A stretch of DNA of 64,000 nt, taken from contig NZ_JUGR01000001.1 in assembly GCF_000800015.1 (NCBI RefSeq), positions 1,984,001 to 2,048,000 on the forward strand. The letters run 5' to 3'. Within the stretch, counting starts at the first letter, position 1. The number at the start of each line of letters is the position of its first letter. A program made the position numbers and the translations under genes. Of the stretch, positions 58,076-61,969 are shown piece after piece. Source of the DNA: Terriglobus sp. TAA 43. Lineage in GTDB: Bacteria; Acidobacteriota; Terriglobia; Terriglobales; Acidobacteriaceae. The notes under the pieces were generated by a model, which had not been told where the DNA came from, did not search any database, and saw only the letters and a list, made by a program, of their open reading frames with translations.

Positions 58076-58798
58076 ATGCCGCTGCGCCGCAGTTGCCTTC
58101 AATGCGAGACGAAAGGTCCGCACTGTTTCTGTTCTTTGGACCGCGTCGCCCTTGAAAGGCTCGACGGCATGGGCCACTTCATGCAGCTCGGCGCGCATGA
58201 ACCTGTGCTGCGCGAAGGCTACGCGCCGGAACAGGTGTACGTGGTCTGCCGCGGCACCATCAAGCTGACAACTTCATCTCCCGATGGCCGATTGCTGCTG
58301 CTGCGCATTGTCGGCCCCGGCGATGTTCTCGGCCTCGCCGCTGCTCTCAAACGTAGCCGTTACGAAGCCACCGCGGAAACGCTGGAGCCCACCCAGGTGA
58401 AAGCAATTCCACGCACGCAGTTCCTGTTGTTCATGGAAGAGTTTCAGGCAGTCAGTCGCAACTCCGTAATGGCGATGGCGCGCGAATATGACTCTGCCGT
58501 TCTCAGCGCACGACGTCTCGCGCTTTCCAGTTCTGCATCCGCAAAACTCGCCAGCGTTCTGGTGGAGTGGGGTGGACTTGTACTGGCTGGCGAACACGAC
58601 GATCACAACGGTCGCTTCCCTAACTCGGTTCGATTCCACATGCCGCTCACCCATGAAGAGCTGGGCCACATGGCTGGCATCTCGCGTGAAACGGTGACCC
58701 GCGTTCTGTCCTCCTTCCGAAAAGAAGGTCTGTTGCAGATGGATGGAAACACCCTGCACCTGAAAGACATGCAACAGTTGCGCCACTGCGCTGAGTAG
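58076..58798 (+). CDS. Crp/Fnr-family regulator with N-terminal cysteine cluster
   Basis: A 240-aa regulator. Cysteines at 7, 10, 17 and 19 (CLQCETKGPHCFC) precede the cyclic-nucleotide-type beta barrel (about 35-145; VYVVCRGTIKLTT, VGPGDVLGLAAAL). The cAMP-contacting Arg-Ser of CRP is replaced by Glu-Ala (YEATAETLE), so cAMP is an unlikely ligand; the cysteines suggest an iron-sulfur cluster or redox switch as in FNR. The winged helix (about 185-230) has GISRETVTRVLSSF, the same RETxxR recognition pattern as CRP, predicting TGTGA half-sites. AGGGAG lies about 6 nt before the ATG. A TGTGA-N6-TCACA site lies 1.9 kb away, before the ctaD operon. Confidence 0.92.
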   Translation: MPLRRSCLQCETKGPHCFCSLDRVALERLDGMGHFMQLGAHEPVLREGYAPEQVYVVCRGTIKLTTSSPDGRLLLLRIVGPGDVLGLAAALKRSRYEATAETLEPTQVKAIPRTQFLLFMEEFQAVSRNSVMAMAREYDSAVLSARRLALSSSASAKLASVLVEWGGLVLAGEHDDHNGRFPNSVRFHMPLTHEELGHMAGISRETVTRVLSSFRKEGLLQMDGNTLHLKDMQQLRHCAE

Positions 58799-58857: not shown

Positions 58858-60525
58858 CTAGATGTGGACCGGAGCGCGACGCTCACGGTGCGGGAAATCA
58901 AGCGACTCATAGTCATACGCTTCATGCGTGACAACCGGAGTCTCAAGAAAGTTCGCCGTGATTGGCGGGGACTGTGTCTGCCACTCAAGCCCATACGCAT
59001 GCCAGGGGTTATCACCCGCAACAGCGCCGAACTTTAATGACCACACAAGATAGATCATGGTGAAGAAGAAGCCAGCACCCATCACGGTTGCGCCCGCCGT
59101 CGACATCACATTCAGCACCTGGTACTCCGGCGGATACGCAGCATAACGACGCGGCATTCCAAGGAAGCCAAGGATAAACTGCGGCCCAAAGGTCACGAAG
59201 AAGCCCACGAAGATCATCACCGCAGCAACCTTTGCAGGGCCTTCGGGATACATGCGTCCAAACATCTTGGGCCACCAGAAATGAACGCCACCCAGGAACG
59301 CCATCAGCACAAAGCCCACCATCACAAAATGGAAGTGCGCCACGATGAAGTACGTCTCCGTCAGGTGTACATCCATACCCAGCGAACCAAGAAACACGCC
59401 CGTGCATCCGCCTACAACAAACAAACCAAGGCAGCACATCGCATAGATCATGGGCGCGCGGAAAGTAATCGAGCCCTTGTACAAAGTGAACGACCAGTTG
59501 AACACCTTGATCGCTGAAGGCACCGCCACCAACATGGTTAACAAACTGAACACCAGAGCCGAGTACTGCGATACACCCATGATGTACATGTGGTGCTCCC
59601 ACACGAAGAACGAAAACAGCGAAATCGCAATGGAAGAGAACGCAACAGCCGTATAGCCAAAAACACGCTTACGACTGAAGCACGCAATGATCTCGCTGAT
59701 GCACGCCATGCCGGGCAGCAGCATGATGTACACAGCCGGGTGCGAATAGAACCAGAACAGATGTTGAAACAGTAGCGGGTCGCCGCCCTTGGCAGGATCG
59801 AAGAAGCCAAAGTTGAAGATGCGTTCCACCGCCACCAGCACAATCGCAATCGACACCACAGGCGTTCCCAGGATCATGATGACGCTGGCCGCATACATGC
59901 TCCAGATGAACAGCGGCAGTCGAAACCACGTAAGCCCCGGCGCACGCATGCGATGAATCGTCGCAACAAAATTAAGTCCGGTGAAGATAGACGAAAAGCC
60001 CGCAACGAACGCAGCGAGTCCAGCAGACACCACATTCGTATTCACATAATGTGTGCTGAGCGGAGTCGTGAACGTCCACCCCGTATCCACGCCACCTGCG
60101 CTGATGGTGTACAGCAACAAACAAGCGGCAACACAATACAGATAAAACGACAGCAGATTGATCTTTGGAAACGCCAGATCTTTCGCACCAATCATCAACG
60201 GCACAAGAAAGTTGCCAAGGATGGCAGGCACCGCCGGAATCAACACGAAGAACACCATCGCAACACCATGCATGGTGAACATCTTGTTGTAGGTGTCGTA
60301 GCTCATCAGGTCTGCTTCCGGCGTGAGCAGCTCCATGCGAACAATCATGGCCAAGATGCCGCCCACCGCAAAGAAGAATGTCACAGCCACCATGTACATC
60401 AGCGCAATGCGCTTGTGATCACTGGTGAGCAGCCAGCTCTTGAGCCCATGCCCGTTGTTCAGATAATTACGCTCGTTGTAACGCGGCGCTCGCACGTCCG
60501 GCAAAACAGGTGCAACAGCACTCAT
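58858..60525 (-). CDS. ctaD: Cytochrome c oxidase subunit I, haem-copper A2 type
   Basis: A 555-aa, about 12-helix subunit carrying the haem and copper-B site where O2 is reduced. Haem ligands occur in [11 protein letters not shown] and [13 protein letters not shown], copper-B His residues in [14 protein letters not shown] and [18 protein letters not shown] replaces the XGHPEVY of mitochondrial-type enzymes; loss of that Glu and presence of Tyr-Ser mark the A2 (caa3-like) group. The ATG at 60525 has GGGAG 7 nt upstream and overlaps the stop of a 50-codon reading frame (ATGA). An ATG at 60531 is the alternative. Subunits II and III are not adjacent. Confidence 0.96.
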
Positions 60526-60674
60526 CGGCATGCTCCCGCTTCATCGCATACCGATGTGGCCAGCACCGCCAATACGATCAGCGGCGGGCAGTTGGAGCTG
60601 GTGCCATAGCCTGCACACTTACCGGTGCACGGCCGGTTGGAGCTGGGGCAGATCTTCGTCGACGGAATACGCAT
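60522..60674 (-). CDS. Putative 50-aa six-cysteine peptide coupled to ctaD
   Basis: From the ATG at 60674 the minus strand encodes 50 residues with GAGG 8 nt upstream, an ideal ribosome site. Its TGA stop overlaps the ctaD ATG at 60525 as ATGA, so translation should be coupled. The peptide begins MRIPSTKIC, has Cys at 9, 16, 20, 29, 43 and 49, a repeated SSN element (CPSSNRPC and GTSSNCPP, encoded by two copies of GTTGGAGCTGG at 60591 and 60636), and one short hydrophobic run [14 protein letters not shown] recognise no family. Binding copper or another metal for the oxidase is a hypothesis only. A chance frame in a leader cannot be excluded. Confidence 0.5.
60591..60646. repeat. Direct repeat GTTGGAGCTGG, two copies
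   Basis: GTTGGAGCTGG occurs at 60591-60601 and 60636-60646, 45 bp apart, a whole number of codons for the six-cysteine peptide. It yields the repeated SSN motif in that frame. Confidence 0.6.
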
Positions 60675-60721
60675 GGGCAGAACCTCGTATGCGTATCCTC
60701 AGCCCAATCGCAAAACGAATC

Positions 60722-60737
60722 TGTGACGGCCATCACA
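60722..60737. promoter_or_regulatory. Crp/Fnr-type binding site upstream of the ctaD operon
   Basis: TGTGACGGCCATCACA is a perfect TGTGA-N6-TCACA pair, the classical CRP consensus. Its centre is about 55 nt before the 50-codon gene and about 130 nt before the divergent hydrolase gene. The Crp/Fnr protein encoded at 58076-58798 has the RETxxR recognition helix that reads TGTGA, so it is the likely ligand. The match is read directly; occupancy is inferred. Confidence 0.65.
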
Positions 60738-60862
60738 CCGTTTGTCAGGGTTTCGTCACCAGAGCCTCAATGCTCTCCACAAGAGGTGAAACGGTCAGCC
60801 CAACCCACACGAATCCCGATAACGCAGATAGAGTGAAAGAACCCATACCGGAGCTACTGCGC

Positions 60863-61969
60863 ATGTCATTGCACCGCATCCCTCGCCTCGTCGCACTGGC
60901 AACTCTGCTCGCAATGCCGTGCGTCGCGCAAAGCACGCAGGCCACGCAGAACCGATATCAGCGCGAAGCAGTCGACGCCGACGTCGCACTTCGCAACGTC
61001 CACTTCGGCACTGGAGAAACGCTGGGCACACTGCGCCTCCACTACAAGACATTAGGCAAGCCGCATCGCAACGCCGCAGGCAAAATCGACAACGCTGTCC
61101 TGATTCTCCACGGCACCGGCGATCGCAGCGACAGCATGCTCACCAGCGTCTTTGCCGATCCACTCTTCGGCCCCGGCGATCCGCTCGACATCACCCGTTA
61201 CTACATCCTCTTCCCTGACGACATCGGCCACGGCAAGTCTAGCAAACCCTCTGACGGCCTGCACGCGCGCTTCCCGCACTACGACTACGACGACATGGTG
61301 CAAACCCAACACGCCATGTTGACCGAAGAACTCGGCATCGATCATCTGCGACTCATCCTTGGCGTCTCCATGGGCGGCATGCAGACCTTCGTCTGGGGCG
61401 AAACCTATCCGGGATTCGCGGACGCGCTCATGCCACTCACCTGCCTGCCGGTGCCACTCGCCGGACGAAACCGCATGATGCGCTACGCCGCCATGCAGGC
61501 CATTCGCACTGATCCCGCGTACAACAACGGCGAATACAAAACCCAACCGCCCAGCATCCACACGGCAAACACCATCCTGCTTGTCACCGGCACCAGCCCG
61601 CTCGTCCTGCAAGGCATCGCACCCACACGCAAGCAGGCTGAAGCCTACGTCGATCAAACAATCCCACAGCGCGACGCCAACACCGACGCGAACAACTTCC
61701 TCTATTACATCGACAGCTCGCGCAACTACGACGCTTCGCAGCACCTCGACCGCATCACCGTCCCCATCACCTGGGTCAACACCGCAGACGACTTCATCAA
61801 CCCACCCGAACTCCGCATCGCCGAGCACTACGCCCCACAACTGAAGCAAGGCAAATTCATCCTGCTGCCCATCTCTCCGGAAACGCGCGGCCACGGCACC
61901 AACATGCTCGCCAGCATCTGGCGCCCCTACCTCTTCGAACTCATGCGCCGCTCCCAGCCCACGCACTAA
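60863..61969 (+). CDS. Exported homoserine-O-acetyltransferase-like alpha/beta hydrolase
   Basis: A 368-aa protein with signal peptide ([16 protein letters not shown]). It has the MetX/acetyltransferase fold: [39 protein letters not shown], nucleophile Ser in [15 protein letters not shown], acid Asp in [11 protein letters not shown] and His in ETRGHGTNM. The true MetX enzymes are cytosolic, and the secretion signal makes a role in methionine synthesis unlikely; it is more probably a periplasmic esterase or hydrolase. GGAG lies 9 nt before the ATG at 60863. A frame continuing upstream reaches the ctaD region with no support. Confidence 0.87.

Follow-up and report, generated by a model that had tools for sequence, protein, structure and literature searches.

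A small cysteine protein family of the Acidobacteriaceae, often encoded ahead of an A2-type ctaD, as a candidate member of an FNR-like low-oxygen regulon

Low-oxygen regulons of the FNR/CRP family are characterised by regulators with an N-terminal Cys cluster and a CRP-like helix-turn-helix (HTH), by sites of the form TGTGA-N6-TCACA, and by targets such as cydA, Usp, hydrogenase and the like. Sco, Cox11 and PCuAC are copper chaperones of cytochrome oxidase. Acidobacteria are abundant in soil and respire nanomolar O2 with 'low-affinity' oxidases, which challenges the standing view (Trojan et al. 2021, PMC8407424). According to the text of that study, both ctaD genes of Terriglobus roseus KBS 63 were higher at 0.001 than at 10 μM O2, and upregulation of the 'single' ctaD persisted once conditions had turned anoxic; this orphan ctaD and its induction at low oxygen have been published before (PMC8407424).

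The window, which is the whole analysed stretch of 64,000 nucleotides from Terriglobus sp. TAA 43 (genome G000, C1:1984001-2048000), contains the following features.

58076 to 58798, plus strand: gene of a CRP/FNR-family regulator with N-terminal CLQCETKGPHCFC and the HTH SRETVTR, convergent with ctaD
58858 to 60525, minus strand: ctaD, A2-type (YSHPAVY) haem-copper oxidase subunit I (PF00115, E 3.7e-141)
60522 to 60674, minus strand: gene of a 50-aa Cys microprotein, identified by ORF reading, homologs and dN/dS
60683 to 60686, minus strand: GAGG ribosome-binding site of the microprotein gene, read off the sequence
60722 to 60737: palindrome TGTGATGGCCGTCACA (minus-strand reading), centred 55 nt ahead of the microprotein gene's start codon

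The original prediction had proposed an unlisted six-cysteine peptide ahead of ctaD without naming a strand. The analysis assigned it to the minus strand and confirmed its ORF, its cysteines, the GAGG and the ATGA overlap. The ORF runs for 50 codons from an ATG at 60674 to a TGA at 60524-60522, with the GAGG eight bases 5' of the ATG, and its product holds Cys at positions 9, 16, 20, 29, 43 and 49 and a single hydrophobic run of 13 residues. The TGA and the ctaD ATG (60525-60523) overlap as ATGA. Because an alternative ATG at 60531, which lies six bases upstream and would lengthen ctaD, is GTG in T. roseus and missing at that place in other subclades, 60525 is likely the true ctaD start. The window's genus includes T. 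roseus DSM 18391, which is taken here to be strain KBS 63. A gene of an alpha/beta hydrolase (PF00561) is divergent at 60863-61969 on the plus strand, so the palindrome sits in a shared intergenic region. The window CtaD scored 631.1 bits on TIGR02891 (CtaD_CoxA), under the cut-off of 670.75, and an automatic pipeline may therefore name it less precisely.

At least six Cys occur in 5 of the 165 ATG ORFs of 40-70 aa counted in the window, so that the Cys count alone is not decisive and conservation decides. Among the five closest genomes the ORFs are identical in length, dN/dS of the microprotein frame is 0.08-0.25 in all ten pairs, and in the two other frames dN is larger than dS in 17 of the 20 comparisons. 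Searched against 101 genomes (that of the window and relatives), the single sequence had 12 matches at E<=7e-5, further matches up to E 1 looking like chance, and ctaD sequence lies downstream in all 12 of these first loci, of which that of G008 keeps just the first 47 codons. A profile search of 398 Acidobacteriaceae genomes then located the microprotein in 55, spread over seven genera, at E<=1.4e-6 with one match each (scoring in the profile searches covered the top 14-16 candidates of each genome, 14 in this one); five weak hits (E 0.0038-0.0065, three with internal stops) were left out of the members. Judged from this conservation, the ORF is a real protein-coding gene. The frame and the core cysteines upstream of ctaD, on which the original prediction depended, are thus both retained in relatives. 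Its further suggestion that a repeated 'SSN' reflects growth by internal duplication was rejected: two GTTGGAGCTGG copies are present at 60591 and 60636, but in the five closest genomes the two places agree at 11, 10, 10, 8 and 6 of 11 positions, so that the copies diverge and leave no trace of duplication.

The family was also sought more widely. A phylum search of 347 genomes (E<=0.001) yielded ten genomes that belong to the family of the window, plus two proteins confirmed as DUF2284, and a scan of 84,980 species with one 9-residue pattern, which is not exhaustive, gave 26 confirmed loci among 48 pattern matches, with titles naming Acidobacteria apart from one titled 'bacterium'; an extension beyond the Acidobacteriaceae was dropped on these two results. 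No plasmid-borne copy was found up to E 1 in 72,556 records. Edaphobacter aggregans DSM 19364 carries three copies (L139, L140 and L141), none adjoining ctaD in the available flanks.

The core C-x3-C-x-GYG-x4-CPPLIVLA is mostly retained across the family. In an alignment of 42 chosen rows out of the 55 members (A2), C20, G22, C29, P30 and V34 never vary, and Y23, P31, L32 and A36 hardly do; a further alignment (A3) comprised 26 of 27 available rows. Members are about 50-93 aa long, and a Cys stands 4 or 6 residues ahead of the core Cys in 53 of 55. All 55 contain at least four Cys (4 to 7 each, with starts partly chosen by hand), whereas C43 and C49 are not conserved, so the Cys-rich character of the original prediction stands while its six cysteines are not a functional set. 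An extra C-x3-C-x2-C stretch occurs in 15 of 55 members, those of 62-93 aa. A subgroup (L095, L100, L101, L103, L104, L106, L107, L109 and L110) ends in CPSLLV or CPPLLVL and lies divergent from a large gene, presumably 2-oxoglutarate dehydrogenase E1-like, whose early part contains TFD(I/L/V)FRRWGYLQASLDPLGQ. So high a Cys content in so short a chain would suit a small metallothionein-like buffer of thiols or metals, induced at low oxygen. Nevertheless, parts of GYG and CPPLIV are conserved as the Cys are, unlike in a plain buffer, and Pfam and NCBIfam scans of four members gave no metallothionein match, which makes such a buffer quite improbable.

The window ctaD is one of two ctaD found in G000, and ctaD lies directly downstream of the microprotein gene in 26 of the 55 loci. 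All 26 display the stop/start overlap (ATGAG in 23, GTGAG in 3), in agreement with the original reading of the window, and ctaD and the microprotein are probably made together through translational coupling. The linked ctaD carry YSHPAVY together with the haem and Cu ligands of an A2-type subunit I; YSHPAVY, HHM, HFHF and SAIK occur in 26 of 26, FTMHG in 25 and FSMHG in one. YSHPAVY, replacing the glutamate of GHPEVY, is presumably what marks the A2 type. In a tree of 49 ctaD rows (25 of the 26 linked and 24 others, two of 51 having been dropped for a stop symbol) the linked ctaD form one clade with support of 100/100. Among the best 30 ctaD loci of a 150-genome search, the 6 in the linked clade carry the microprotein, and none of the other 24 has it within about 1.5 kb; the second ctaD of G000 (L125) likewise has none within about 1.5 kb.

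This pairing, along with Cys pairs that could bind Cu, speaks for a dedicated assembly or metal-delivery factor (for Cu or haem insertion) of the low-oxygen A2-type CtaD, translationally coupled to it, as originally predicted. However, no intact ctaD comes next in 29 of the 55 loci: 27 have none (among them G345, where just 120 nt of contig remain) and two keep an intact microprotein beside ctaD remnants. Moreover, ctaD is carried by 129 of 150 sampled family genomes, and the microprotein occurs in 12 of these 129 and is absent in 117. Both results argue against an obligatory oxidase assembly factor, and with no copper chaperone matched in Pfam or NCBIfam a dedicated one is considered unlikely. 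As for the two remnants, the ctaD of G008 is cut to its first 47 codons at a locus that retains the promoter site, the intact microprotein and a regulator of 95% identity, and that of G129 consists of two pieces (residues 3-49 and 482-551) beside an intact microprotein. The truncated ctaD of G008 belongs to locus L121, 1295000-1306000 of C2.

In G426 and G375 (L096 and L093), the microprotein stop overlaps not ctaD but the gene of a 114-aa protein; the two 114-aa proteins are 71% identical, and a carboxypeptidase-regulatory-like domain (CarboxypepD_reg) is found in the G426 copy. Such an overlap with a different downstream gene, the conserved overlap with ctaD, and the fixed place between promoter site and ctaD would all be expected of a regulatory leader ORF whose translation alone controls ctaD through coupling, the peptide itself having no job. 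Yet the amino-acid constraint on Cys, GYG and CPPLIV is strong, 16 of the 29 loci lacking an intact ctaD have no ATGA or GTGA string at the microprotein stop, and no known RNA family was recognised, a search of 60400-60900 for a structured RNA leader giving no Rfam match up to E 1. A leader without a functional product is accordingly very improbable.

The promoter palindrome is tied to the microprotein gene more closely than ctaD is. TGTGAYN4RTCACA occurs once in the 4.95-Mb G000 genome, at the microprotein gene. Upstream of the family members, TGTGA-N6-TCACA is perfect at 40 of 55 loci and present with at most one mismatch at 52 of 55, compared with 8 and 27 among 1100 windows drawn at random from these loci; three loci have no site even at one mismatch. 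All 40 perfect sites match TGTGAYNNNNRTCACA. The site centre lies at a median of 55 nt from the start codon (quartiles 51 and 57, 52 loci), with 10 of the 52 distances outside 48-66, partly owing to automatic choice of the start. The promoter site is therefore a nearly constant partner of the microprotein gene, ctaD being present about half the time. Between 1 and 9 occurrences of the pattern were counted per genome in 20 other genomes, the reversed control giving 0 to 2. Extension to a whole regulon from a looser site was dropped, since with one mismatch allowed the pattern occurs too often (115, against 45 for the control). G008 carries its 16-base site (TGTGACCGTCGTCACA) a second time, elsewhere in the genome.

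The regulator encoded beside ctaD in the window combines a cNMP-binding fold (PF00027, 3.2e-17) and a Crp-type HTH (PF13545, 7.1e-18) with the N-terminal Cys of CLQCETKGPHCFC, putatively cluster-binding; a C..C..C pattern was present in 31 of 38 neighbouring regulators. A relative of this regulator lies within the available flank (<=5 kb) at 39 of 55 loci, namely 22 of 26 with ctaD, 1 of 2 with remnants and 16 of 27 others, these counts being lower bounds because the flanks span 0.1 to 6.6 kb; none was seen at the other 16 of 55. From this arrangement and the type of site, the microprotein gene appears to be regulated by the FNR-like protein. The neighbourhood would also fit a protein partner of the regulator, whose metal site senses O2, NO or redox state and feeds back on regulator activity: the regulator adjoins the gene at many loci lacking ctaD as well, and in G008 the microprotein and regulator stay where ctaD has been cut. 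Neighbourhood can nonetheless reflect mere co-regulation, and the loci with no regulator in the flank fit a partner poorly. In addition, 125 of 150 family genomes encode FNR-like homologs and 112 of these 125 lack the microprotein, so the regulator does not need it. A partnership of this sort is possible, although it is rated as rather unlikely.

The genes that share the site give an indication of its physiological context. Of 20 site loci in other genomes, 12 were chosen for inspection, one locus per genome, and a recognised gene lies beside the site in 8 of them. In G173 the site stands between cydA and the regulator, which diverge around one TGTGAYN4RTCACA, and the microprotein of this genome (L118 / L215) lies near the cytochrome bd genes and 2.7 kb from the regulator. 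The site precedes universal stress protein genes in G052, G123, G012, G005 and G037, a phosphoketolase gene in G227, and the gene of a NiFe hydrogenase small subunit in G185; in G335 it is the microprotein's own, and no recognised target was found at the site in G009, G008 and G195 (3 of the 12). These targets and the published T. roseus data together point to oxygen limitation. The 'single' ctaD of T. roseus is presumably the microprotein-linked one, and as both T. roseus ctaD were upregulated, induction is not special to the microprotein operon. The main text of that report has no mention of a small protein, a hypothetical protein, Fnr, CRP or a regulator (PMC8407424).

With respect to known families, none in Pfam or NCBIfam was reached at its cut-off by four members, and no PHROGs family matched the window microprotein. 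The sole family likeness is to DUF2284 (PF10050), which four divergent members, one cut to 69 aa, met with 15.3, 13.1, 15.3 and 17.8 bits, all under the gathering cut-off of 25 bits. The N-terminal DUF2284 motif C-x3-C-x-x-[YF]-G-x4-C-P-P is present in the microprotein, where it is spaced, as C-x3-C-x-GYG-x4-CPP, exactly as in the two DUF2284 proteins from the phylum search (L136 and L137). Two further DUF2284 proteins differ, one having C-x4-C and the other lacking the CPP Cys, which indicates that the DUF2284 motif itself varies. Comparison by hhalign with a DUF2284 alignment (A4) of three proteins, the fourth without the CPP Cys being left out, gave a probability of 85.8 and an E of 5.3e-6 over 22 columns. 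The four DUF2284 proteins are 171-210 aa long, against about 50-93 aa in the microprotein family; the three in the alignment (171-200 aa) share a second Cys cluster, whereas the microprotein carries the first motif alone, the rest of the domain (about 160 residues) being missing from its 50 aa. By these scores and lengths the microprotein is not a DUF2284 member, and its Cys site may work like that of DUF2284. No solved relative was found, the sole match up to E 10 being NttC (E 0.97), and an AlphaFold model was uninformative (pLDDT 55.6, pTM 0.28).

Considering all of these results, the preferred reading, to which a probability of roughly 0.6 is given, is that of a microprotein with a Cys-ligated metal, probably Fe-S, that belongs to an FNR-like low-oxygen regulon and serves the response and not one oxidase. 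On this reading the ORF product is a true small protein, probably located in the cytoplasm, and its core Cys would most likely coordinate a metal, probably as an Fe-S cluster. As the first gene of its transcript, it would be turned on at low oxygen by the FNR-like regulator, with TGTGAYN4RTCACA, found about 55 nt before the start, as the predicted binding site. In about half of the carriers the second A2-type ctaD follows and, with its overlapping start, is presumably co-produced. Service to the low-oxygen response in place of one oxidase is suggested because the microprotein is kept where ctaD is broken or non-adjacent, often near the regulator. As for its molecular role, the weakest step of this scheme, it would most likely act as a metal-dependent or redox-sensitive partner, either tuning the regulator or protecting or supplying metal centres while oxygen is limiting. 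A more specific version, held to be doubtful, is a self-contained, regulator-driven low-oxygen module in which the stripped-down DUF2284-type Fe-S motif of the microprotein reports O2 or NO back to the regulator, with different respiratory genes (ctaD, cydAB and others) plugged in behind or beside the microprotein.

In PMC open-access text, the sole literature searched, no description of the microprotein was found, and the family, the promoter rule and the DUF2284-like motif appear to be new. In several genera a family member identifies the promoter and the opening gene of a low-oxygen oxidase operon, and the locus offers a defined regulator-site pair for testing. Moreover, in the microprotein the uncharacterised Cys motif of DUF2284 stands by itself in minimal form, and its chemistry would become testable in a protein of 50 residues.

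Among described systems, a close one is the 'single' A2 ctaD of Trojan et al. (2021), likewise a second A2-type ctaD, which in T. roseus KBS 63 lies outside the ACIII superoperon and is upregulated at nanomolar O2; its Results and Discussion do without the microprotein, promoter palindrome or regulator that accompany ctaD here (PMC8407424). The microprotein resembles Sco, Cox11 and PCuAC, which are small or Cys-containing and encoded near oxidase genes. In contrast to them, it is often found away from oxidase genes, has no membrane anchor or export signal by eye, and matched none of their Pfam or NCBIfam profiles up to E 10 in four members; its motif match is to DUF2284, which is predicted to bind metal, and to no known Cu chaperone. 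The FNR/CRP-family regulons share the HTH, the Cys cluster, the type of site and the kinds of targets seen at this locus, and to their targets the Acidobacteriaceae list, with binding predicted, adds the microprotein.
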